Notes under the pieces: model-generated
Seen by the model: the letters and a program-made list of their open reading frames with translations, nothing else
Databases searched by the model: none
Told to the model about the DNA's origin: nothing
Shown: in pieces, positions 2,454-21,445 of the stretch
Layout: each line of letters begins with the position of its first letter
Position numbering within the stretch: position 1 is the first letter of the stretch
Virus record (IMG/VR): IMGVR_UViG_3300025157_000003
Location: 1-25,529 of that record
Strand: one strand, 5' to 3'
Origin: a virus
Length of the DNA stretch: 25,529 nt
Position numbers and translations under genes: made by a program

Positions 2454-2996
2454 GTGGGCGGGTTGCATCAATTCGCTTCGTTCCACTTCGGGTCCCTGCA
2501 CTTCGCGCAACAGGGATACGGCTTGCAGCCGCGCGGGAAAGGCCGGGTCCAAGAAGTCCGGCCGCTCCTCGACCTTGGCTGGATCGAGACGACGTACCGG
2601 GAGCCCAAGCGAGCGCCGGCGATCCTCCCGCCGCCGAAGCGGAGGAAGCGGAATCCCGACGGATTCCCTTCCGCTCCGGTACCGATCGTGCCTGCGCCGG
2701 CGGTCCCTTTGCCGGAGGTCGAAGCCCTCGCCGACATCGTCTTCGGTCCAAGGCTTCCCCTGCCCGAGATCGGGTCCCGGGCTCCGACCGAGAAAAATAT
2801 CCATTCGATCCTTGACATTCCGCTGGCCGATCCTGTAATCTCGAAACCGTTCACCGCGCGGGTCCGGTCCCCGGGCGTCATGCCCGCCCGCGCGCGCGAG
2901 ATGGCGACGCACGTCGCCAAGTGCAGGGGCCGGGCGTTTCTGGGGGTGCGACGGCAGCAGGTGACGGTCCGACGACGCGAGAGGTTCTCCGGCTGA
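2454..2996 (+). CDS. Hypothetical virion protein with FxFGSLxF start and Pro-rich tail
   Basis: A 180-residue product that begins with an aromatic repeat-like segment (LHQFASFHFGSLHFAQQGYG) seen near the start of many small phage structural proteins, followed by a Pro/Arg-rich linker and a basic C-terminus. Third-codon-position G/C bias holds in this frame to nearly the stop, supporting it over the competing frame that ends at 2838. The start is uncertain: GTG 2454 or TTG 2463, neither with a clear SD. Its 3' end contains a sigma-70-like promoter and overlaps the next ORF. Function unknown. Confidence 0.5.
   Translation: MGGLHQFASFHFGSLHFAQQGYGLQPRGKGRVQEVRPLLDLGWIETTYREPKRAPAILPPPKRRKRNPDGFPSAPVPIVPAPAVPLPEVEALADIVFGPRLPLPEIGSRAPTEKNIHSILDIPLADPVISKPFTARVRSPGVMPARAREMATHVAKCRGRAFLGVRRQQVTVRRRERFSG
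2812..2841 (+). promoter_or_regulatory. Sigma-70-like promoter candidate inside the end of the 2454 ORF
   Basis: TTGACA at 2812-2817 (perfect -35), an 18-base spacer, and TAATCT at 2836-2841 (-10, matching the key T-A....T positions). It would fire into the composite protease gene and capsid genes, allowing them to be expressed apart from the upstream fibre genes. It lies within coding sequence, so chance occurrence is possible. Confidence 0.45.
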
Positions 2997-5398
2997 CCAA
3001 GACCGCCTCCGAGCGGTACAGGCAGGCCGTGGATTTCGCGCCCGCGCTCCCGGCCGACGCGGCCCTCGCCAGCGCTACGGCGAAGGCGATGGACGAGGAC
3101 TCCGGTGCGGACGCCACGCTCGAAGTCCTCGACTCGCCGCAGTGCGACGTCCGCGGCTCGACCGCGACCTGCCTCGTCAAGGGCGGGCTGCCTGGGCATG
3201 CCTACGCCGTTTCGGTCTTGGCGAATCTGACCACCGGCGAGCGCGTCGAAGAGTCGTTCATCCTCAAGATCGATGGCGGGAAGTCCGATTCCCCTTCGCC
3301 ATCGATCTCGGCGGCAGCGACCGCTTCTCTCGCCGCCTCCGGATTGCGGCAGGGCGACGCGGTCGCCAAGGTCGAGGCTTCCGAAATCTCGCGCACGCCC
3401 GAGACCGGCGACCGCAAGCCGTCGGGTCGGTTCACTTACCTCGGCTCCGGAGTCCCGGCCTCGACGCGCCGCGCCGACGCCTACGGCCGCGGCGAGGGCG
3501 ACCGACGCAGGATCGTCCTCCGTGCCGTGGGGATCCCGGCGGACCATCCCCCCGTCTGGCCCGCCGACGTGGACGAGTCGACCGCCGAAAAGAAGACCGT
3601 ACCCGTATCCAAGCTGGTGCTGACGCGGCCGACGGCCGTGCGCGGCCGGCTCGGGCGCGCGGCGAAGACGTTCAAGGCGGGCCTCAAGAACGAGGGCGAC
3701 GGCATCTCGCCGATCCTGGTGACGCCTCACGAGGACGGGTCGGACCGGTACGCCGTGGTCCGCGGCAGGGGCGAGCACCGCGTCGCCGCCGCCGCGCTGG
3801 AGGATCCGAAAGCGGAAGTTCCGGTACTGGTCGCGCCGAGGCGGACGGAGAAGGCGTTCGACCCGAACCAGCCCAGGGACGAGGGCGGACGGTTCAGCGA
3901 AGGCGGAACAGCCCGAGGGAAGAAACCGAAAGAATCGAAGAAGCCGAAGGAACCGAAGGAGCTTGAAATCAAGGCATGGGATGGCAAAGAAACGTTGGTT
4001 CCGGGGCACCTCGTGATGCTGGAAGGCGATGATGAACACGATCATGTCGTCTTGGAAAGCCAGGATGAGCGAGGGGACATTCCGCGCGTCTTAGTTCAAA
4101 CCCTTGGGACCGGATTCACGATTGCTCCTACGACCCGCGTTGCCAGGAATTTTATCAAGCCGAAATTGGCCAAGCAGCTTTCGACTTCGGTGTTCGGCGC
4201 GGGCGCTGAGCTCGCGCCCAGGGGATACGGGAGGCTGAAGACTCGCGATCGCAGGCTCGGCGCCGACGCGAAGCGGCAAGCTGCATCCGGCAAGAACCCT
4301 CCGAGCTGGGTGGCCGACGAGGTGATCTGGGAGAAGGCCAAGACCGCGGCGAAGAAGACCTACGACGAGGACGACGCCGCGTTCTGGCCCGTCGTCACGA
4401 CGATATACCGGAAGATGGGCGGAGAAGTCCGATCGACGGCCAAGAAGCAGGAGGACGACGTGAGCGACGCGGCGAAGAACAAGATCGAGATGCGCAAGCG
4501 CGAGATGGGTCTGTCGTCCTCCGAACTGCGCAACAAGATCAGCGCGGCCGTGAAGGCCAAGTTCGGGATGTACGCCTGGGTGATCGAGGTTTTTCCCGAC
4601 ACGCAATACGTCGTCGTGGACAAGGGCGGGTACGGCTACCCCGACTCCGGGGAAGGCCGGAAGCTCTGCCGGATCGAGTACGAGATCGGCGACGACGACG
4701 CGATCGAGCTCGGGGAGCCGGAGATCGTCGAGCTCGACTACGTGCCCTTGAAGAAAGAGAAAGAGGTCGAAGTCGAGGCCGCATGGGACGAAAAGACGGA
4801 AAAACACGTCGTCTCCTGCGCGAGTCCCGAAGAAGCGACGGCGCTCGCCAAGGCGCTCGCCGAAACCGGGAGCGCCACGGCGGTCGAGATCCCCGACGGC
4901 GAGTCCGCGTTCTCTTTTCGATTGACGGACGGATCGGCGGCAGGGAAATCCGCGCGCGTCTTCGCGGTCGCCGAGTACGAGGAATGGGGAGCGCCCGGGT
5001 CCGACCTCTCGGAGGTCGTGAAGTCGCTGGAAATCCTCGACGACGACGACGAGATCAGGAAGGCGGCGGAGGAGAAGGGCCTGCTGACCATGCTCGCCTA
5101 TCCGGCGAACAGGAAGGACAAGCAGAACGAGTGGACGGACGAGGACGAGCTGGAGAAGGCCGCGCACGGCTTCCTCGCCGAGCACAGGAGGATCAACCTC
5201 TTCCACAGGGACGACGATCCGAGCGAGGTCGTCGAGAGCTGGATCGCGCGGAACGATTGGAAGGTCGGTACGAGGACCGTCAAGAAGGGCGACTGGCTGA
5301 TGACGGTCAGACTTTCGGAAAAGGCGAAGAAGCTCTACAAGGAAGGCAAGATCCGGGGCGCGAGCATCGAGGGATCGGCCGTCCGGGTGCCGGCGTAG
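2921..5398 (+). CDS. Composite protein: fibre-adaptor-like and ParB-like domains plus C-terminal XkdF-type prohead protease
   Basis: An 825-residue frame with several units. Residues about 25-117 resemble the phage fibre-tail adaptor fold (VDFAPALPADAALASAT, LVKGGLPGHAYAVSV). Residues about 225-305 look ParB/Srx-like (ISPILVTP, GRGEHRVAAA). FDPNQPRDEGGRFS (313-326) is a common phage linker. Residues 348-425 come from lower-GC DNA. Residues 459-501 contain NPPSWVADEVIWEKA and IYRKMGG. Residues 725-825 match XkdF/Peptidase_S78_2: YPANRKD, INLFHRDD with likely catalytic H762, VVESWI, KKGDWLMTV, and GASIEGSA with likely nucleophile S815. The protease would trim scaffold and capsid precursor during head maturation. 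The start may instead be CTG 2993, which overlaps the previous stop. An internal SD+GTG at 4460 could yield the protease alone. Confidence 0.75.
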   Translation: MQGPGVSGGATAAGDGPTTREVLRLTKTASERYRQAVDFAPALPADAALASATAKAMDEDSGADATLEVLDSPQCDVRGSTATCLVKGGLPGHAYAVSVLANLTTGERVEESFILKIDGGKSDSPSPSISAAATASLAASGLRQGDAVAKVEASEISRTPETGDRKPSGRFTYLGSGVPASTRRADAYGRGEGDRRRIVLRAVGIPADHPPVWPADVDESTAEKKTVPVSKLVLTRPTAVRGRLGRAAKTFKAGLKNEGDGISPILVTPHEDGSDRYAVVRGRGEHRVAAAALEDPKAEVPVLVAPRRTEKAFDPNQPRDEGGRFSEGGTARGKKPKESKKPKEPKELEIKAWDGKETLVPGHLVMLEGDDEHDHVVLESQDERGDIPRVLVQTLGTGFTIAPTTRVARNFIKPKLAKQLSTSVFGAGAELAPRGYGRLKTRDRRLGADAKRQAASGKNPPSWVADEVIWEKAKTAAKKTYDEDDAAFWPVVTTIYRKMGGEVRSTAKKQEDDVSDAAKNKIEMRKREMGLSSSELRNKISAAVKAKFGMYAWVIEVFPDTQYVVVDKGGYGYPDSGEGRKLCRIEYEIGDDDAIELGEPEIVELDYVPLKKEKEVEVEAAWDEKTEKHVVSCASPEEATALAKALAETGSATAVEIPDGESAFSFRLTDGSAAGKSARVFAVAEYEEWGAPGSDLSEVVKSLEILDDDDEIRKAAEEKGLLTMLAYPANRKDKQNEWTDEDELEKAAHGFLAEHRRINLFHRDDDPSEVVESWIARNDWKVGTRTVKKGDWLMTVRLSEKAKKLYKEGKIRGASIEGSAVRVPA
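4449..4462 (+). promoter_or_regulatory. Internal ribosome binding site and GTG start within the protease ORF
   Basis: AGGAGG at 4449-4454, a 5-base spacer and an in-frame GTG at 4460-4462 (residue 514). Initiation here would give a 312-residue product starting (M)SDAAKNKIEM and containing the whole XkdF-like protease domain. The sequence before it is a charged linker, a natural domain boundary. Confidence 0.45.
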
Positions 5399-5552: not shown

Positions 5553-5834
5553 ATGGCAGACTCGACCGGGACCAGGGGAAAAGCGAAGTTGGTCAGGATG
5601 CGCGTCACCAAGGTCAGCCTCGTGGACGCGCCCGCGACCGGGGAGGATTTCCTGGTCTACAAGGCGCACGGGGAGGCGGAGGGGCAGTCGCGACCGCTCG
5701 CGCTGTCGGACGTGCCCGGGCTGGCCGCGTTCGCCAAGTCGGAGCCCGACCGCGGGCCGGCACTCTCGTACGACGCGGGCGCCGTCATGCGCATGCTCGG
5801 TTCGATCGGGCGGAACGGTCCGCCGATCCCATGA
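5553..5834 (+). CDS. Small phage protein with VSLVDAPA motif
   Basis: A 93-residue protein whose N-terminus reads KLVRMRVTKVSLVDAPATGEDFLVYKA. The VxxVSLVDxPA pattern is frequent in phage prohead proteins and protease-associated segments next to major capsid genes. The C-terminal half is less distinctive. The ATG is preceded by GGAGG. From its place between the protease and the capsid protein it may be a scaffold-like or protease-linked factor; no catalytic residues are visible. Confidence 0.55.
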   Translation: MADSTGTRGKAKLVRMRVTKVSLVDAPATGEDFLVYKAHGEAEGQSRPLALSDVPGLAAFAKSEPDRGPALSYDAGAVMRMLGSIGRNGPPIP

Positions 5835-6391: not shown

Positions 6392-7783
6392 TTGTTCGAG
6401 ATCGAAGTCCTGGAGCGCGACGCCGCGGACATCGTCCGCAAGGCGCTCGACGACTCCGCCAAGGGGAAGCGGCCGGGCAAGGCGGGAGGCCAGACCCCGC
6501 TCCGCAAGGCCGAACATCAGGTTCCCGGCGAGGACGGGAAGCCGGGCGACGCCATGGGCATCGGCGACGGGGACGACAATCCGTTCGATTCCGTCATCCA
6601 GCTCAAGAAGTCGGAGATCCCGACGGACATCCGCGACGACGTGGTCAGGCTCCAGGAGCTGAACGACAACTCGATCCTCCTGGCGAGCCTGCTCACCAAG
6701 CAGGACGACTTCGGCCGGAGGATTTTCGTTCGCCCGGAGGAGACGAGGTACTTCGCGCGCAAGGTCCGGCCGTTCCTGCTGAAGAACGACCGCCTCCTCA
6801 AGCAGATGGACACGGCGACCTCCGGAGAGGGCTCCGAGTGGGTGCCGCGCGGATTCAGCGCGCGGCTCTTCGAGCTGATCCAGAGCGGAATGACGGTCGG
6901 CTCGGAATTCGAGCAGGTCGACATGCCGCGCGGGTCGTGGGAATACCCGATCACTTCCGGGCGTCCGACGGCGTACCTCGGCAGCGAGCAGGCGGGTGAC
7001 GAGGCGGCCAAGACCTACGCCGCCTCCAACCCGACGACCGGGCGCGTCACGCTGACGGCGAAGAAGATCGGCATCCGCGTCCCGTTCAGCGAGGAGCTCG
7101 AGGAGGATTCGATCGTCCCGGTGCTCCCGGCGTTGCGCGCGAACACGGCGTACCACCTCGCGCGCAACCTGGAGGACGCGATCCTCAACGGCGACACGGC
7201 GAGCCCGCACATGGACAACGACGTGACGGCGGCGACCGACCGGCGCAAGGCGTGGATCGGCCTGCGCGCGCAGGCCGTGGATCTCGGGGCCGCGGTCCGC
7301 GTCTCGCTCTCGACCTTCAGCGCGGCGAAGCTGCGCCAGCTCCTTTCGGTCATGGTCGAGTACGCCATCGACGACCCGACGAACAACCTGGTCCTCGTCA
7401 CCGGCCCGAAGGCGTACTTCCGGCACTTCTCCGACCTCGCCAACGCCGCGCGGACGGACCCTCGGATCGGAGGCGGCGGACTGGTGAACGTCGGCGGAAA
7501 GCTGATGTTCGACGGCATCCCGATCAAGGCCAGCGCGGTCATGCGCGAGGACCTGAACACGGTCGGCGTTCGCGACTCGACGACCCAGGACAACTCGGCG
7601 GTGCTCGCGGTCCACAAGCCGAGCTGGAAGCTGGCGACGCTGCGCGGGCCGCGGATGCGGACCTGGCTCTCCACCCTGTACGACCAGCAGCACCTGATCG
7701 CGGACTGGCGCGGCACGCTTTTCACGCCGTGGACCACGACCGAACAGGTCGTCGCGATCGGGGTGGACATCGACGTTTCGTAA
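6392..7783 (+). CDS. Major capsid protein, HK97 fold
   Basis: A 463-residue protein forming the icosahedral shell. Typical HK97-family features include the N-arm/E-loop-like region followed by SARLFELIQSG, the GSWEYPITSGRPTAYL strand, KKIGIRVPFSEELEEDS (spine helix entry), LARNLEDAILNGDT, a domain with NLVLVTGPKAYFRHF, and GKLMFDGIPIKASAVM near the C-terminus. The first about 100 residues are charged and Gly-rich and may be a delta (scaffold) domain removed by the upstream protease. The TTG start is chosen because AGGAGG precedes it at good spacing. It follows the protease and zinc-finger genes and precedes a glycosyltransferase and connectors, a standard head order apart from the inserted enzyme. 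Confidence 0.85.
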   Translation: MFEIEVLERDAADIVRKALDDSAKGKRPGKAGGQTPLRKAEHQVPGEDGKPGDAMGIGDGDDNPFDSVIQLKKSEIPTDIRDDVVRLQELNDNSILLASLLTKQDDFGRRIFVRPEETRYFARKVRPFLLKNDRLLKQMDTATSGEGSEWVPRGFSARLFELIQSGMTVGSEFEQVDMPRGSWEYPITSGRPTAYLGSEQAGDEAAKTYAASNPTTGRVTLTAKKIGIRVPFSEELEEDSIVPVLPALRANTAYHLARNLEDAILNGDTASPHMDNDVTAATDRRKAWIGLRAQAVDLGAAVRVSLSTFSAAKLRQLLSVMVEYAIDDPTNNLVLVTGPKAYFRHFSDLANAARTDPRIGGGGLVNVGGKLMFDGIPIKASAVMREDLNTVGVRDSTTQDNSAVLAVHKPSWKLATLRGPRMRTWLSTLYDQQHLIADWRGTLFTPWTTTEQVVAIGVDIDVS

Positions 7784-7901: not shown

Positions 7902-8597
7902 GTGGGCAGGATCGTCGGCGCGATGAACGTCTACATGGATCTTCCCCTCTTGAGGGAGTCTCTCCCCGTGGTCCGCTCCCTCGTCGACGTGCTCGTCGTG
8001 GCCGACGGCCGGTACGCGCAGTTCCCCGACGCTTGGCACGGCGCGGCGAGCGCGGACGGGACTCTGGAGTACGCGCGCGAACGCGCCGATCTCGTCCTCG
8101 AGGCGCCCGGAGGGAATCCGTGGCCGAGCGAGATCGCGAAACGCAACGCCTATCTGGAGCGCTGCCGGCCGGGAGACGTCGTGCTCGTGGTCGATGCCGA
8201 CGAGGTCCTCGAGGGCGACCGGCCGGGGACGCCTCCCGTCCTCGACCGGGCGCTCGCCGGGTCGCGCGACGACTGGCTTCTGGATCTCTATCGCGAGGAA
8301 GACGCGGACCTGCGGCAGCCGATCCATCGGCTGTTCAGGATGCGCGAGGGGCTTCGATACGCGGGCGCGCACCACGCCGTGCACGTTGCCGGGAAACTCA
8401 TTCGGCCGCGCGACCTGGAGTGCTTCCCCGGAATCGTGATCCGCCACATCCAGCGGCGCAGGTGCTACGAGCGCAACCTCCCGAAGGCTCGCTACTACGA
8501 TTGGCTGACGTGCGACGAGCGCGGTTTCAGGTGCTCGCCGGAAGCGTCGGGGATGGACGCGGCGAAGTCGCCCGCTTCGGCGCGGGAGGGGAGGTGA
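7902..8597 (+). CDS. Glycosyltransferase-like protein (GT-A, DxD)
   Basis: A 231-residue protein with a GT-A type sugar-nucleotide domain: N-terminal RIVGAMNVYMD, strand VDVLVVADGRY, EIAKRNAYLERC, then GDVVLVVDADEVLEGD, where D98 and D100 form the DxD motif that binds metal and nucleotide sugar. Later IHRLFRMREGLRYAGAHHAVH and RHIQRRR resemble the acceptor half of GT2-like enzymes. GTG is chosen because GAGGAGG lies upstream. It sits between the major capsid and connector genes and ends 3 bases before the next start, so it is co-expressed with the virion genes. Its acceptor is unknown: a capsid protein or a host surface glycan are both possible. Confidence 0.7.
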   Translation: MGRIVGAMNVYMDLPLLRESLPVVRSLVDVLVVADGRYAQFPDAWHGAASADGTLEYARERADLVLEAPGGNPWPSEIAKRNAYLERCRPGDVVLVVDADEVLEGDRPGTPPVLDRALAGSRDDWLLDLYREEDADLRQPIHRLFRMREGLRYAGAHHAVHVAGKLIRPRDLECFPGIVIRHIQRRRCYERNLPKARYYDWLTCDERGFRCSPEASGMDAAKSPASAREGR

Positions 8598-12093: not shown

Positions 12094-12816
12094 ATGTCGC
12101 AGGAAGGCAAGGAAGAAAAGCCGGTCGGCATCGCGGAGGCTCTCGGTCGGAAGTGCGTGGAGTGGACGGACCGAACGGGCAGGCGGCACTCGCTCCCGAC
12201 GCTGGTCTTTTCGGACTGGGCCGAGATCGAAGACGAATTCGGTCCCGTGGACACGTGGGCGCAGCCGAAGAACGCGTGCGGCCGGATGTGGGGAGCCGCG
12301 ATCTGGAGGTCGATGCGCCGCGAAGGCTTGAGCCGCGCCGACGTGCTTGCCGCGAAGTGGACGCTCCGATTCGAACACGCTTGCGAGCTGGTTCCGGTCG
12401 GCACGGGCACGTTCGAGGCGGAGGACGCGTTCGGAACCGTCCAGACCTTCCATCCGCTCACGCTCCTCGATCTCGTTCTGGCCGAGAAGGACTTCGGACC
12501 GAGCGTCGAATGGGTCCCTCCCTTCCCCGTCCGGATGGTCCTGCGGCTCGTATGGCTGTCGCTGCGGAAGCAGGGGAAGCCTCCGGAGCTCGTCGCGACG
12601 GGCGACGCGGCCATGACGGAGAAGGAAGCGTCCGTCCTCTTCCCTCCGCAGGTGGCGTCGCGGGAGGAGTTCGCGCGCATCCTCGACCGCGACAGGATCT
12701 CCGGCGTCCAGAAGCTGTGGGCGGACCTCCTCGCGGGGAGCGGGATCGCGGTCAGGGCCGCAGCGGAGTCGCAAGCCTCGGACCCTCAGCCCGCCGCGCC
12801 GACTGGCGCGGCATGA
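12094..12816 (+). CDS. Tail assembly chaperone, first frame (gpG-like)
   Basis: A 240-residue protein between the tail tube and tape measure genes, the position of the lambda gpG/gpGT chaperone pair. It has an N-terminal SLPTLVFSDWAEIEDEFG segment, a helical LVLAEKDFGPSVEWVP / VRMVLRLVWLSLRKQ part and a Ser/Ala/Pro-rich end. ATG 12094 was chosen because GGGAGGAAG precedes it and the open frame upstream overlaps the tail tube gene. Its stop overlaps the next start (ATGA) and the second ORF is in the -1 frame. The protein would bind the tape measure before tube assembly. Confidence 0.6.
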   Translation: MSQEGKEEKPVGIAEALGRKCVEWTDRTGRRHSLPTLVFSDWAEIEDEFGPVDTWAQPKNACGRMWGAAIWRSMRREGLSRADVLAAKWTLRFEHACELVPVGTGTFEAEDAFGTVQTFHPLTLLDLVLAEKDFGPSVEWVPPFPVRMVLRLVWLSLRKQGKPPELVATGDAAMTEKEASVLFPPQVASREEFARILDRDRISGVQKLWADLLAGSGIAVRAAAESQASDPQPAAPTGAA

Positions 12817-12977
12817 TCGCGACGGCAGTGGCGTTCGGCGTCTCGCTGGCGGAGGTCGAAGCCATGGACATCCTGATGCTTCGCGACGTGCTCGACGCCA
12901 AGCGCAGACTCGCGGCGGACTCGGCGGTGTTGGGAAGCGGAGCGCTGTTCGGATCCGTGCCGCGTCCGGTCGGCTGA
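12813..12977 (+). CDS. Tail assembly chaperone, second frame (gpT-like)
   Basis: A 54-residue ORF beginning ATG 12813 within the upstream stop (ATGA), too short for most gene callers. It reads IATAVAFGVSLAEVEAMDIL then LRDVLDAKRRL, the small helical module (GVSxxEVxxM) common in the second chaperone ORF. It lies in the -1 frame relative to the first ORF, as in lambda G-T, and is open well upstream of the ATG, so it could be made either by reinitiation or as a -1 frameshift fusion. No convincing heptameric slippery site was found by eye. The 93-base gap to the tape measure gene holds a GCCCCT/AGGGGC hairpin (12992-13006). Confidence 0.6.
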   Translation: MIATAVAFGVSLAEVEAMDILMLRDVLDAKRRLAADSAVLGSGALFGSVPRPVG

Positions 12978-13070
12978 GTCAAGCCGCGAGTGCCCCTGGG
13001 AGGGGCGGTCAAGTTCGGGCGCGGCTCGTCGCGGAGGACGGGGGGGACCCGCTAGGGGCGCGAGAAGATC

Positions 13071-16000
13071 ATGGCGGAAGCGATCGGCTTGGAAGTCAGG
13101 ATCGGGGGCGACCCTTCCGCCGCCCTCGGCGCGCTCGACAAGGTCGACTCCGCCCTTAAACACACGACTTCGGGAGCGCAGGCCGCAACCTCGTCCTTCC
13201 TCAAGGTCGGACAGACCATTCAGGCTTGGGGCGACGCCCTCAAGCACGTCGCGGCCGTCGGCAAGCGGGCGTTCGACGCGATTCTCGGCGACGCCATCAA
13301 GGTCGCCGACGAGATCGGCACGTTCTCGAAGCAGACCGGAATCGCGACCGACTCGCTTCAGCGCCTGAAGTTCGCGGCCGAGCAGAGCGACGCCAGCTTC
13401 GGAACGCTTCGCGCCGGGCTCAAGATCCTCCAGCGCAACATGGGAGAGGCGGCGTCCGGCTCGAAGGAAGCCGCCGACGCGTTCGCCCGGATCGGCCTTT
13501 CGACCTCGCAGGTCGCCTCGATGGACGTGGAACAGGTCTTCGAGCGCATCGCGGACGTGATGGCCGACGAGGCCGTTCCCGACGCGCAGAAGATGTCGCT
13601 GGCGATGGACCTGATGGGCCGTTCGGCGAGCGAGCTCCTGCCTCTCCTCAAGCAAGGCGGAGAAGGCATCCGGGCCTTTGGGCAGGAAGCGGAGGAGCTC
13701 GGCGCGGTCATGAGCGACGAGACGATCCAGGCGACGAAGGACTTCGAGGACAATCTCAAGGCGATCAAGACGGCGATTTTCGGGGCGTCGTCCGTGATCC
13801 TGAAAGAGCTCGCGCCGTCGCTCAAGGAGTGGACCGACGCCGTCCGGAAGCGCATGCCGGAAGCGATCCAGTGGGTCAAGGACTTCGTCAAGGCGATCAG
13901 GATCGCGGCGGAGAACCTGCGCTACTGGGGAGAGATCGCCGGCATCGCCGTCGGGAACGTCATCGGAGGATTCCGCGACCTGATCAAATTCCTCGGGCTG
14001 TTCGGGCGCGAGTTCGTCGGGCTCCTGGGCGACATCCTGGACAATGCCGTGCCGCTCTTCCGATCGGCCGGAGCGGCGATGGTCGAGGCTCTCAAGGCGG
14101 GCCTGACCGGCAAGGCGTTCGACTTCGCTTCGGTGGTCGGGGGCCTGGAGCCTTTCCTCGGCAAGCTGTCCGAGCGCATCGCGACGGTCGCGAACGCGGC
14201 CGGAGAGGTGGTGGAGACGCTCTCGTCCGGATTCGAGTCCGCGGAGCGCAGGCACCGGCAGAACGTCGAGCGAATCGTCGAGGACCAGGAAAAGCTCCGC
14301 GACGCCTTCGATTCGACGGCGAAGGCCGCCGCGAGGATGACGACGCTCTCGGAAGAAGGCCGGGGTCGGCCAAAGAGGCCGGAAAGCGCGGCGTTCGGAC
14401 CGGAACGGCTCGTCGGAGGCCTCGTCGCTCCAGGTCAGGAAATCGCCGGCGCCGAGTTCGTCGCGAGGAGGAAGTTCGGAAGCCTGCTCGAGTACGAGCA
14501 GTTCAGGGAACGCGTCGCGCTGGCGAAGCGGTTCGCGGCCGGCGAAGGAAGCAGGATCGAAGCGCAGGCGCTGAGGACGAAGCACAAGCTCGAACGGGAA
14601 CTCGGGATGCGCTTGAACGACGAGCAGCTGAAGCAGGCGCTCGAATTGGAGAACGAGGTCGCGGAAGAGAGGCGGCGCATCGACGCGACGACGCGGGGCC
14701 AGGAACGGAAGGCCGCTCTCAAGGAACTGGAAGAGACGAGGAAGCAGGCGGTCAAGGCCTTGGCCGACAAGATGAAGGACGAGAAGGACAAGAAGTCGCT
14801 GCTGTACAAGCAGGAGAGAGAGCACGTCGACAAGATCGGGCAGCAGCGCAAGCGGATCGGCGAAGAGGAAGCGGCGGACCGGAAGAGGGTCCAAGACGAC
14901 GAGATGCGCCATCTCGACGAGGTGCTGCGGAAGAGGAAGGAGGCGGCGTCCTCGCCCATGGGAGTCTCGGCCGCCGGGCCGCTGGAAGCGACGGCGGGCG
15001 TGACGACCGGCGGCACGGGCATCTCCGGACTGTTGAGCGCGATCCGCGAATGCGTATGCCGCGCGCCCGAGGCCGTGGCGAGCATGTCCGGCATCGCGAC
15101 CGTCTCGACCGTCGCGGGAGGCGGTGCAGTCGCGTCGGGCGTCGAGAGTCTGCTGGGAACCGTGGTGGCGCTCTTGACGCAAGTCGTCGCGTGCGTGTGC
15201 CCCCGGTGCTGCCCGCAGCCGTTCCTGACGACCGGAGGCGGCGGAACGACCGGCCCGATCTCTCCCTACGCGGCTGGAGGGCGGTTTGCCGGCGGCGGAG
15301 TAGGAGGCGTCGCGCTTGCCGGCAATCTCGTCGGAGGCGCGGGCGCGCTCGGGCTGGCCCTCGGCGGCGGCGGCGGACTCATCAATCCGTTCGGAGGATT
15401 CGGAGCGGCCAATCTGTTCGGCGGGGGCGCCGCGTTCGGAGGGCCCGCCGCGGTCGGCGGCTGTCCTCCCGGCACGAATCCGGATCCGATCACGGGAGAA
15501 TGCGTCCCGTATGCGGCCGGCGGCGGAACCAGCGTGCTTTCGCTCTTCCAGAGCGGCCCTTTGGCGAACGATCCGCGCGCGCCATTGCTGGCGCAACAGA
15601 TCGCGCAGAAGTTCCCGGGCATGAATCCGGCATCCATCGCGATGCTCGTCCAGGCGATCCTCCTCGGCGGGGCAACGCCTCCGCCCGGTATCACGGTCCC
15701 GCAGATGCCGGCCGCGCCGCAAGGGCCGATGCCGACTCCGAGCGCGGGGCAGCGCGAGCTCGCTTCTCTCGCCGAGCGCGGCCTGCTCTCGATGGAGCAG
15801 ATCGCGCAGATCCAGTCCGGAGGAGGCGGGATGACGATGCTTCCCGGCTTCGATCCGACCGGAGGGATCGAGGCGGTAGACAGGTTCGGCAAGCCGATCG
15901 CGGGCGTTGGCGGAGGAGCCGTCGCCGCGCCCGCGTTCGACCTCTCGCGCTACGTCGGAGGTCTCGCGACGACGGGAATGGCCGAGGAGATCTTCGCGCG

Positions 16001-16274
16001 GCTGACCGGCGAGGCTCCGGGCGCGGCCGAGACGCCGGAAGAGGCCAACACCAAGGCGACGCAGGAGAACACGACCGCGCTCCGCGACATGGCGGCCAAG
16101 CTTCAGATGATCGGCGCGACCGGCGGGACGGCGACGACGCAAGGCGGCGGACAGACCGTCGTCTACAACGACTATTCGACCGGAGGGGACGCCGCGACCA
16201 AGGAGCGCTTCCGGCTCTGGCGCGAGCAGCGATGGGAAGTGCAGATGCGCGAGGCCCAGCAGGGGAACATCTAG
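13071..16274 (+). CDS. Tape measure protein
   Basis: A 1067-residue protein that sets tail length and is ejected ahead of the DNA. The N-terminal 250 residues are typical tape-measure helices (VGQTIQAWGDALKHVAAVG, EIGTFSKQTGIATDSLQRLK, AADAFARIGLSTSQVASMD, ASELLPLLKQGGEGI). Hydrophobic helices follow (WGEIAGIAVGNVIGGFRDLI), then a long charged coiled-coil at about residues 470-625. After that come Cys-rich clusters (ECVC; ACVCPRCCPQP; GGCPPGTNP...GECVP), Gly-rich stretches, and a C-terminal part with an ENTTALRDMAAKLQ helix. By the known ruler of about 0.15 nm per residue, it would give a tail of about 160 nm. The GTG of Dit follows 4 bases after its stop. Confidence 0.8.
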   Translation: MAEAIGLEVRIGGDPSAALGALDKVDSALKHTTSGAQAATSSFLKVGQTIQAWGDALKHVAAVGKRAFDAILGDAIKVADEIGTFSKQTGIATDSLQRLKFAAEQSDASFGTLRAGLKILQRNMGEAASGSKEAADAFARIGLSTSQVASMDVEQVFERIADVMADEAVPDAQKMSLAMDLMGRSASELLPLLKQGGEGIRAFGQEAEELGAVMSDETIQATKDFEDNLKAIKTAIFGASSVILKELAPSLKEWTDAVRKRMPEAIQWVKDFVKAIRIAAENLRYWGEIAGIAVGNVIGGFRDLIKFLGLFGREFVGLLGDILDNAVPLFRSAGAAMVEALKAGLTGKAFDFASVVGGLEPFLGKLSERIATVANAAGEVVETLSSGFESAERRHRQNVERIVEDQEKLRDAFDSTAKAAARMTTLSEEGRGRPKRPESAAFGPERLVGGLVAPGQEIAGAEFVARRKFGSLLEYEQFRERVALAKRFAAGEGSRIEAQALRTKHKLERELGMRLNDEQLKQALELENEVAEERRRIDATTRGQERKAALKELEETRKQAVKALADKMKDEKDKKSLLYKQEREHVDKIGQQRKRIGEEEAADRKRVQDDEMRHLDEVLRKRKEAASSPMGVSAAGPLEATAGVTTGGTGISGLLSAIRECVCRAPEAVASMSGIATVSTVAGGGAVASGVESLLGTVVALLTQVVACVCPRCCPQPFLTTGGGGTTGPISPYAAGGRFAGGGVGGVALAGNLVGGAGALGLALGGGGGLINPFGGFGAANLFGGGAAFGGPAAVGGCPPGTNPDPITGECVPYAAGGGTSVLSLFQSGPLANDPRAPLLAQQIAQKFPGMNPASIAMLVQAILLGGATPPPGITVPQMPAAPQGPMPTPSAGQRELASLAERGLLSMEQIAQIQSGGGGMTMLPGFDPTGGIEAVDRFGKPIAGVGGGAVAAPAFDLSRYVGGLATTGMAEEIFARLTGEAPGAAETPEEANTKATQENTTALRDMAAKLQMIGATGGTATTQGGGQTVVYNDYSTGGDAATKERFRLWREQRWEVQMREAQQGNI

Positions 16275-16277
16275 GCC

Positions 16278-17054
16278 GTGCCGACGACGATCTTCCGCTA
16301 CGACACTCTCGACCTTCAGGATGAGGCGAACGGCCTGGCGGTCTCGGCTTTCGTTCTGCCCGACCGGACCCGCGTTCCGAGCGAGGTCGCGCCGCGCCGG
16401 CACGGCGTCGTCCGCACGGAGGAACCGACGCTCACCGAGCGCGTGCTCGCGTTCTCCGGGACGATCAAGCAGGACACGGCGGCCCTTCTGAGGACCAAGC
16501 TCGACGACGTGCTCAAGACGATGAACGGGACGGAGAAGCAGTTCTACCTGTACGACACGACGCGCTACATCGTCTGCACGAAGACCGAATTCCGCTCGCG
16601 CTTCCGTCCGGGTCCGGCAATGACGGTACTCGACTACGACTGCGAGCTGTTCGCCTCGGACCCGTTCTGGATCGCGGCGACCGGGACGACAGACACGCAG
16701 ACGGCCTCGAATTGGCCGACGAGCGCGCTCTCTTGGACCCACACGAATTCGGGCAGCGCGCTCGTCTTCCCGACCTACACGGTTACGGCAAACGTCGCCG
16801 GGGCGGTGGCCGGTCCGATCACGCTCACGAACTCGACGACGGGCAAATCGTGGACGTTTTCGGCGACCATCGCGAGCGGAAAGTCCATGGTCTTCAACAC
16901 GGCGAACTTCACGGTCACGAACGACGGCGCGGACGCGATCAATTCGATGACCGGAGTTCCGGTCTGGCTCACGAGCGGATCCAACAGCTTGAGTTTCAGC
17001 GGCGGCAACGCCACCTTCAAGATCGCGTACAACGCGCGCTACTACGGACCCTGA
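16278..17054 (+). CDS. Distal tail protein (Dit-like)
   Basis: A 258-residue protein following the tape measure gene, the standard position of Dit, the hub that joins the tail tube to the baseplate. The N-terminal domain has the expected FSGTIKQDTAALLRTKLDDVLKTM and MTVLDYDCELFASDPFW segments. The C-terminal half (ITLTNSTTGKSWTFSATI...NFTVTNDGADAIN, VPVWLTSGSNSLSFSGGNATFKIAY) is a beta-sandwich of the galectin-like kind used by evolved Dits to bind host carbohydrates. GTG start, stop 4 bases before the next gene. Confidence 0.7.
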   Translation: MPTTIFRYDTLDLQDEANGLAVSAFVLPDRTRVPSEVAPRRHGVVRTEEPTLTERVLAFSGTIKQDTAALLRTKLDDVLKTMNGTEKQFYLYDTTRYIVCTKTEFRSRFRPGPAMTVLDYDCELFASDPFWIAATGTTDTQTASNWPTSALSWTHTNSGSALVFPTYTVTANVAGAVAGPITLTNSTTGKSWTFSATIASGKSMVFNTANFTVTNDGADAINSMTGVPVWLTSGSNSLSFSGGNATFKIAYNARYYGP

Positions 17055-17057
17055 ACC

Positions 17058-17393
17058 ATGGCTCTGCCGATCATCCTCGAAGGCTCGGAAGGCACGAGCG
17101 GCGGGACCTCCCCCGCCGACGATGCCGGCGCGTACTTCGAGCTGGAGCTGTGGCAGGTAGCCGGCCTGGACTTCGGCGCGACTCTCACGCGCAAGAAGGT
17201 CTTCCGCGCGCAGCTCGCCGAGGCGCACTGGGACTACGACCGGATCGGAGGCGCCGGGAAGGGCGAATTCGTCGTCGAGGGCGGTGTCGCCGACATGGAC
17301 GAGGCCGTGCAGACCCAGTGGGAGATACGGCTCCTGCGCGAGGGCGCGATCTGGTATCGCGCTCGCCTGACTGCCTACGAGCACTTCACCTGA
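17058..17393 (+). CDS. Baseplate protein, N-terminal part (ends at in-frame TGA)
   Basis: A 111-residue piece. After MALPIILEGSEGT it reads FELELWQVAGLDFG, WDYDRIGGAGKGEFVVEG and WEIRLLREGAIWYRARLTAYEHFT, the N-terminal half of a common phage upper-baseplate domain in which the WYRxR strand runs straight into an EGY..L segment. Here a TGA at 17391-17393 stops translation between these strands, and the same frame resumes the domain ([18 protein letters not shown]) without any shift. On its own the product would be missing half of the domain. It is either the short form of a readthrough pair, or a gene broken by a nonsense mutation or base error. Confidence 0.65.
   Translation: MALPIILEGSEGTSGGTSPADDAGAYFELELWQVAGLDFGATLTRKKVFRAQLAEAHWDYDRIGGAGKGEFVVEGGVADMDEAVQTQWEIRLLREGAIWYRARLTAYEHFT
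17391..17393 (+). other. In-frame TGA interrupting a baseplate/fibre gene
   Basis: The codons either side are in one frame (ATG 17058 and ATG 17418 are both multiples of 3 apart) and encode parts of one apparent domain. The stop is followed by C (TGAC), a context known to be leaky in bacteria. No SD stands before ATG 17418. TGA is used as a normal stop in many genes here (746, 838, 8597, 9758, 19769), so it is not a genome-wide sense codon. Confidence 0.6.
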
Positions 17394-20053
<2,660 letters not shown>

Positions 20054-20974: not shown

Positions 20975-21445
20975 GTGGGCGCGTTGAGGGCTCTGGTCGT
21001 CGAGGACGACGCGAAAGTAGCCGAGCTCGTCCGCTGCGTTCTCGCGGAGGCGGGGGTCGAGGTCTCCGTGGCTGCGACGGTCGCGGAGGCCGAGTCGCTC
21101 ATGGCCGAGGCGATGCCGGACGTCCTGTTTACCGATCTGTCCTTGCCGGACGGAAGGGGCGAAGACATGCTCCGCCTCATGGAGATTCGGGGGGATCGAG
21201 TCCCGACGGTCGTCGTCAGCGGGGACCTGCCGGGAGCCGGAAATCTGCCTCGGTGGGCCGTGGCGGTCGCGAAGCCTCTGGAAATCGCGCGTCTGCCCGG
21301 GATCCTCCGCGACGCCGTACGCGGGCTCGGACCGGCTTGCTCGGGCCGCGGCGGGATCTCCGGCCTCTGCGACCGCGTCGAGGCCATGACGCGCGCGGTG
21401 GAGGAGACGAGGCGCGAGATACGCCACGCCGGGTGGGCGCGATGA
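20975..21445 (+). CDS. Stand-alone CheY-like response regulator receiver
   Basis: A 156-residue protein with a complete receiver domain: acidic pocket E10/D11/D12 (ALVVEDD), phosphoacceptor D54 in VLFTDLSLPDG, switch S82 in TVVVSGD and K100-P101 in AVAKPLE. The spacings (42, 28, 18) match the family. The remaining about 35 residues are a short helical tail (CDRVEAMTRAVEETRREIR) with no DNA-binding or enzymatic output domain. It sits between the XhlA-like gene and a one-helix membrane peptide and is coupled to the latter (ATGA overlap). Phospho-signals from a host kinase could act on it, or it might titrate phosphate or a partner. No kinase gene is present here. Confidence 0.85.
   Translation: MGALRALVVEDDAKVAELVRCVLAEAGVEVSVAATVAEAESLMAEAMPDVLFTDLSLPDGRGEDMLRLMEIRGDRVPTVVVSGDLPGAGNLPRWAVAVAKPLEIARLPGILRDAVRGLGPACSGRGGISGLCDRVEAMTRAVEETRREIRHAGWAR

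Follow-up and report, generated by a model that had tools for sequence, protein, structure and literature searches.

The window analysed here is a 25,529-base stretch of viral DNA (positions 1 to 25,529 of virus record IMGVR_UViG_3300025157_000003) with a guanine-plus-cytosine (GC) content of roughly 67%. It contains an uninterrupted 825-codon open frame on the plus strand (2921..5398), with a GTG start and a stop, which encodes a multi-domain chain ending in an XkdF-type prohead protease. About 710 residues precede the protease domain. The gene lies after the portal and MuF genes and before that of the capsid, the expected place of a prohead protease. Long frames of this type recur in other phages; the placing of a maturation protease after other domains is not peculiar to a single contig. 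The interpretation that we prefer, and to which we give an even chance, is that the product is a phage-type polyvalent chain, in which the C-terminal unit is the prohead protease that carries the front half of the protein into the procapsid, where the front half is released at maturation.

Results

The initial annotation placed fibre-adaptor-like, ParB-like, linker, insert and XkdF-type protease units in a single frame, and this frame is real. A second public record, IMGVR_UViG_3300009444_000017 (L007; 44,062 bases), spans window positions 316-25529 with 11 single-base differences, none of them within the 825-codon frame, which is identical and unbroken there and gives no sign of a lost stop. 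The second record is not fully independent because both may derive from one virus population. The codon-position GC of the frame (0.65/0.48/0.84) supports coding, with a dip in the coding signal at about codons 326-415, and under a codon model trained on the same virus the frame has the third-highest score among 49 called genes. Additionally, Pfam matches lie at both ends of the chain in the same reading frame. Length alone is little proof, because high-GC DNA has other long frames that overlap called genes, among them listed frames of 1811 residues (minus strand) and 738 residues. The former, at window 12786-18221 opposite called genes, is probably a high-GC by-product and is a warning against judging frames by length. 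The start codon is uncertain because the frame is open for 35 codons further upstream of GTG 2921 (860 codons in total); no Shine-Dalgarno match of at least 3 bases precedes this GTG. At the left end of the window, positions 1-315 hold a DNA gyrase B-like fragment which, having no match to the second record, looks like an assembly or strain junction.

The protease domain occupies residues 711-822 of 825 (5051..5386, plus strand) and is recognised by Pfam, alignments, AlphaFold and BFVD. The Peptidase_S78_2 profile (PF14550) matches there with an expectation (E) value of 1.5e-17 and 64.2 bits (cut-off 24), and the chain stops three residues past the match. The protein has eight PHROG matches, all of them at its C end, and three carry the name head maturation protease. 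The conserved protease positions are D733, H762, E772, S773, G790, W792 and S815. In the largest alignment, with 54 other sequences or pieces, D733, H762, E772, G790, W792 and S815 are invariant and S773 is kept in 90% or more; E772 and S773 are both invariant in two smaller alignments (9 and 11 others), and H762 and E772 are invariant in all three. We designate His762, Glu772 and Ser773 as putative catalytic residues of an XkdF-type protease. The AlphaFold model is confident over residues 721-810, with a block mean predicted local distance difference test (pLDDT) score of 92-97, and its BFVD fold matches include proteins named XkdF. The annotated XkdF-type protease at the chain end is thus borne out by a Pfam match over cut-off, the conserved His and Glu-Ser residues and the position in the head cluster.

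The order of genes is portal, MuF, the 825-codon gene, a gene with a VSLVD segment and capsid, with small genes between. Three small called genes separate the MuF head protein from the 825-codon frame. On its 3' side lie a gene with a scaffold-like start that opens with a VSLVDAPATGEDF segment (5553..5834, plus strand; gene calling and pattern search), a small gene, the gene of the HK97-type major capsid protein (6392..7783, plus strand; Pfam Phage_capsid, E 1.4e-10; phrog_10) and connector genes.

Three modules precede the protease domain, and AlphaFold is also confident over residues 471-500, most of 531-600 and 621-670. Module m3 (residues 452-504, NPPSWVADE...; 4274..4432, plus strand; pLDDT about 90 over 471-500) matches, at 55% over 40 residues, a segment of locus L302 directly before a Mu-I-like protease, which is itself weakly recognised (E 0.02, under cut-off). 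Module m4, the insert of the initial annotation (residues 550-612; 4568..4756, plus strand), weakly matches, over residues about 551-610, two phage proteins: gp4 of Corynebacterium phage Dina, annotated as a head maturation protease (Mu-like_Pro, 24.5 bits; cut-off 25.2), and Tsac_2860 of Thermoanaerobacterium phage THSA-485A (Peptidase_S78, 16.1 bits; cut-off 21). Searched against the whole phage collection, m4 weakly matches 16 records (E 0.3 to 0.9), lower E values coming from small sets picked because of that same match; 14 of these records are from Corynebacterium phages, all annotated as capsid or head maturation protease, and two are THSA-485A records annotated as hypothetical protein. 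Module m5 (residues 613-690; 4757..4990, plus strand) is an alpha/beta unit predicted by AlphaFold, with no convincing sequence relatives within the loci searched. Judging from these matches, m3 and m4 are probably companions of prohead proteases in more than one family, and their occurrence beside other-family prohead proteases suggests a single protease unit spanning residues about 450-825.

The front half begins with a Gp77 domain of the podophage fibre-tail adaptor family (PF23148; residues 27-115; 2999..3265, plus strand; E 1.1e-8, 35.9 bits, cut-off 27), in agreement with the fibre-adaptor-like unit first annotated. The ParB-like unit of the same annotation fared less well. At about residues 223-306 (3587..3838, plus strand) the segments VPVSKLV, ISPILVT, YAVVRGRGEHRVAA and VPVLVAP, with a G-x-x-R type segment, GEHR, at 284-287, follow one another in an order resembling what we take to be the ParB/Srx pattern. 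A rough two-sequence ParB profile gave this unit 4.3 bits, a score reached by 6 of 1000 shuffles. The Pfam ParB_N profile had no match in the 825-codon protein at E up to 1, and PF02195 (ParB_N), run on the record of the window, had none to the ParB-like unit at E up to 10; a PDB sequence search likewise gave no match at E up to 10, and tblastn of residues 27-340 against phages gave none at E up to 1. Residues 207-313 found only the same virus in IMG/VR. Modelled alone, residues 28-340 have a mean pLDDT of 36.8; the ParB-like part is mostly under 50 in the models, and its order of strands and helices does not contradict a ParB/Srx fold. The full-length model had no PDB fold match at E 0.001 or better, its VIA-align rows were all under Z 8 and were not used as evidence, and no chain titled ParB was among the 50 rows listed by the PDB fold search or by VIA-align. 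A ParB-like identity of residues 223-306 is possible. Downstream of it lies a linker motif, FDPNQPRDEGGRF (residues 313-325; 3857..3895, plus strand), with a variant in the MuF gene of this virus; the form common to the MuF protein (L007 9199-11052) and the 825-codon protein is FDPxQxRDExGR.

Related frames were gathered from IMG/VR scans with the protease, one GTDB genome scan and named phage regions, 300 loci in all (given L numbers here). Each scan for relatives kept the best 80 loci by likeness to its first row, and one scan is enriched in long frames because it was led by the long-frame protease of L029. Removal of 8 same-record copies left 292 protease frames, and clustering at 80% protease-domain identity reduced these to 121, each cluster being represented by the row with the longest front part. 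Front lengths are upper bounds because they were measured from the first ATG, GTG or TTG. At least 300 residues precede the protease in 30 of the 121 non-redundant frames (ours included) and at least 500 in 20; before clustering, the counts were 48 and 26 of 292. The proportion of 30 in 121 is not a prevalence, because the sample is skewed to long frames and genomes of one phylum show none: among 296 of these, XkdF occurs in 4, with frames of 156-390 residues, one of the 4 being the centre genome, which was chosen for having XkdF. The longest XkdF frame has 1,758 residues in all. No more than 22 residues follow the protease match in any of the 30 long frames, and with ATG-only starts 29 of them stay over 300 and 18 over 500. 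Five of the long clusters (L157, L174, L180, L194 and L208) also contain shorter members, some of them possibly truncated where a contig stops; L219 has an open left end, and the first part of L190 looks non-coding by eye.

An enzyme domain over the Pfam cut-off stands in front of the protease in 18 of the 29 other long frames. A D12 adenine methylase is found in nine (L029, L144, L157, L161, L166, L170, L174, L179 and L180), an ATP-dependent DNA ligase in four (L150, L194, L203 and L208), a uracil-DNA glycosylase in three (L203, L208 and L213), a 2H phosphoesterase in three (L183, L190 and L231), an inorganic pyrophosphatase in L181 and an S-adenosylmethionine (SAM) methylase in L208. Among cultured phages, gp18 of Arthrobacter phage Laroye combines 2H with XkdF. 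In L203 and L208 both ligase and uracil-DNA glycosylase precede XkdF, and L208 also has a below-cut-off LigD-N match; the ligase or glycosylase chains of L150, L194, L203 and L208 could possibly represent a packaged DNA-repair set. Long XkdF fusions therefore recur in relatives, but none of the 29 matched ParB_N at E up to 0.05 or 0.1, so that, provided the ParB-like reading holds, the pairing of a ParB-like unit with XkdF may be new. The initial annotation held that XkdF-type proteases are usually much shorter; that long frames are unusual is not supported by the skewed sample as a whole (30 of 121 long), although they are rare in the tree branch of this protease (2 long frames of 45, see below). 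Stand-alone protease genes, a form that the initial annotation would have counted against the fusion if joined with evidence of a missing stop, do exist in relatives, as in Sonali gp5 (123 residues) and Mufasa8 gp4 (126 residues), yet no lost stop is apparent in this virus.

Two side observations concern these relatives. Proteases at least 80% identical differ in front length, from 29 to 602 residues around L174 and from 298 to 588 around L157, which may reflect real gain and loss with fast exchange of the front half, cut contigs or the choice of start. Short XkdF proteases of about 150 residues are labelled "DNA methyltransferase" in several records (L307 2438-2908, L310 2453-2911, L311 2450-2905 and other Pseudomonas phage records), and a note on Vibrio phage 1 points to a methylase-named protein of Haliangium.

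A quick maximum-likelihood tree was built from 115 of the 121 protease domains over 130 columns, six having been dropped by score or length. The long-frame label needs 13 changes on this tree, against a shuffled mean of 26.7, and well-supported branches force at least two. A single origin of all 30 long frames was rejected by the approximately unbiased (AU) test (p-AU 0.00023), applied to a quick tree of 130 columns and to a group defined by frame length with a self-chosen cut. These results suggest that, in XkdF-type phages, maturation proteases came to stand behind other domains on more than one occasion. The protease of the 825-codon frame falls in a supported group of 45, composed of itself, 43 short-frame proteases and the long L231. 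A place among short-frame proteases implies that the fusion probably arose separately; the branch is long, which makes the place unsure, and a separate event is likely rather than certain.

The VSLVD segment of the next gene has counterparts in many members of the sample. Using a pattern written after seeing examples, and in rows related by descent, we found VSxVDxxANxxxF at the beginning of the following gene in 60 of the 121 cases (27 of the 30 long frames, e.g. L168, L144 and L157), before the protease in the same chain in 13, never in both places, and in neither in 48, among them 4 with too little sequence past the stop to judge. As a background check, opposite-strand frames totalling 1,378,106 residues contained no instance. 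In Tsac_2860 the same kind of segment follows the protease core (EVSVVDYPAYPKAKF). As a hypothesis, a strand belonging to the protease fold may have changed place and in the end become a separate piece within the scaffold gene.

Elsewhere in the neighbourhood, the longer record has a ParB_N gene, followed by Dcm-like and Vsr-like genes (these two by eye only) and then, ahead of the portal gene, by a long gene in the place of the large terminase subunit, with an intein-like match. No terminase family match was obtained for this gene (L007 4130-7018, left of the window; 962 residues), whose intein-like stretch near the C end scores 35.3 bits (cut-off 35.8). By eye only, window 7902-8597, which lies between the capsid and connector genes, resembles a glycosyltransferase gene, and window 20975-21445, after the tail genes, resembles one for a response-regulator receiver domain. 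In Arthrobacter phage Mufasa8, the 1000-residue gp3 (L018 2003-5005) carries the label portal protein in one record and that of MutT/NUDIX hydrolase in a second. Inspected by eye, it comprises a portal, a NUDIX-like stretch and a MuF-like part, so a relative, too, may have enzymes inserted into its head proteins.

Discussion

From the frame, its end domains, the putative catalytic residues, the gene order and the recurring architecture, we infer packaging, cleavage, release and a role for the front half. Residues about 450-825 (m3, m4, m5 and the XkdF protease) would constitute the prohead protease unit, and the N-terminal half, with its Gp77-type domain, ParB-like unit and linker, would be cargo or an adaptor that is carried along. 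During assembly, the protease unit would bring the rest of the chain along into a procapsid filled with scaffold. Later, at maturation, it would cleave the scaffold, the capsid proteins and its own chain. The front half, now free within the head, might stay there as an internal protein or leave with the DNA at infection. The presence of Gp77 and XkdF in one frame, the gene order, the 30 long frames among 121, each with its protease at the C end, the enzymes in 18 of 29, the weak matches of m3 and m4 and the C-terminal placement and processing role proposed for assemblin-like peptidases (PMC5512222) argue for this interpretation. Several observations weigh against it. Residues 1-450 have no convincing relative in the searches made and no confident predicted structure, and the only well-supported domain among them, Gp77, is of a structural adaptor type rather than an enzyme. 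In 11 of the 29 other long frames (L146, L147, L159, L168, L184, L185, L186, L187, L189, L202 and L219) there is no enzyme over the Pfam cut-off, and the protease itself lies among short-frame proteases on a long branch (1.34).

Another interpretation, possible but on balance rather unlikely, is that the front half is part of the assembly machine: the Gp77-type domain and the other modules would tether the protease to the portal, MuF or shell and be discarded after cutting. Gp77 bears the name of a virion adaptor family, m3 and m4 occur alongside other prohead proteases (albeit by weak matches), an FDPNQPRD-type motif is common to the 825-codon protein and the MuF protein of the same virus, and the front half has no enzyme domain over the Pfam cut-off. 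A tether does not readily account for the front parts of 18 of the 29 other long XkdF frames, which hold enzymes with no evident role in assembly, and short XkdF proteases such as Sonali gp5 do without one.

An improbable alternative is that the frame yields two products, with the protease made alone from an in-frame internal start and the full chain minor or separate. Nested starts are known in phage protease-scaffold genes. GTG 4460 (codon 514) stands behind AGGAGG with a 5-base spacer, and the 312-residue product from this codon would be close to common XkdF frame lengths; GTG 5018 (codon 700) has GGAG. However, equally strong signals precede 9 of 413 internal in-frame starts, compared to 9 of 46 called gene starts, in this virus, and across the 30 long frames signals of at least 5 bases show no enrichment near the protease (10 of 206, versus 38 of 818 elsewhere). 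The signals for an internal protease start are no better than background, and we did not adopt this interpretation.

We think it similarly doubtful that three propositions hold together: that the protease is a carriage tag for any cargo in front, that its activation is gated by the scaffold, and that the 825-codon frame is an independent case with an adaptor and a ParB-like unit. The gating would depend on the VSLVDxxANxxxF segment, which closes the chain in HK97-type proteases, leads it in PBSX-type XkdF and would here have moved into the opening of the scaffold-like next gene. The protease and the scaffold would each supply what the other lacks, and release of the cargo by cutting would have to wait until the two had co-assembled; at its front, the 825-codon frame would carry a structural adaptor together with a ParB-like nucleotide or DNA unit. 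If true, this would apply to the whole branch of prohead proteases, and anything fused in front would enter the head.

Finally, an artefact in which a lost stop or an assembly error joined separate genes is very improbable: relatives have stand-alone protease genes and the left end of the window has one apparent junction, but the frame is identical in the second record, carries coding signal along its length apart from the one dip, shows matches at four places and is accompanied by many other long frames of its type.

The interpretation that the protease carries the front half as cargo has practical consequences. If cargo is delivered, prohead protease C-ends would mark, and help to find, proteins that phages bring in with their DNA. 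Additionally, the "DNA methyltransferase" label on short prohead proteases in many Pseudomonas phages may be explained by fusions of this kind, having probably been carried over from methylase-XkdF chains.

Head-associated domains fused to extra domains are also a feature of MuF polymorphic toxins. In the toxins of temperate phages the carrier is MuF (PMC5576092), not a protease as here, and no toxin domain was recognised in the 825-codon protein. The XkdF proteases of named phages (PBSX-like Bacillus, Lactococcus, Arthrobacter, Pseudomonas and other phages) share with this chain the conserved D, H, E-S, G-x-W and C-terminal G-x-S and a place in the head gene cluster. Those examined have 123-373 residues, and 542 in HHTV-2, in contrast to the 825-codon chain; they bear a scaffold-like tail, a short front part or neither, whereas this chain has about 710 front residues and no tail. 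XkdF has been named as an alternative head peptidase in some jumbo phages (PMC7824862).

The closest precedent is the polyvalent proteins of phages, described near late genes by Iyer and colleagues in 2017 (PMC5512222). The assemblin-like peptidases among them have a limited distribution, are always C-terminal and likely act in virion assembly, and a processing role was proposed (PMC5512222). The initial annotation regarded the fusion as unusual; C-terminal prohead-type peptidases on multi-domain phage proteins were thus already described. Like polyvalent proteins, the 825-codon chain holds unlike domains (Gp77 and Peptidase_S78_2, both over cut-off), lies in a late-gene, virion neighbourhood and has its peptidase at the C end (711-822 of 825). 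The same work covers ParB, adenine methylase, 2H and pyrophosphatase domains (PMC5512222); of such front effector domains, the 825-codon frame shows a weak ParB-like signal, and methylase, 2H and pyrophosphatase occur in its long relatives. Phage P1 DdrB likewise has a ParB-type unit (weak here) in front and a peptidase behind (PMC5512222). The P1 peptidase is a zincin metallopeptidase, whereas that of the 825-codon protein is a serine prohead protease, and the processed DdrB product is packaged in the head (PMC5512222), as the front half would be here. The main text of PMC5512222 contains neither XkdF nor "glycosylase", its three mentions of "ligase" concern RNA ligases, and the sets Gp77 plus ParB-like plus XkdF, DNA ligase plus XkdF and uracil-DNA glycosylase plus XkdF were not found in the parts of it consulted; a search of the open-licence PMC library gave no paper on a phage prohead protease with uracil-DNA glycosylase and DNA ligase. 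Thus, the 825-codon frame belongs to an already described kind of protein, the polyvalent chains, with a set of parts of its own that is new.

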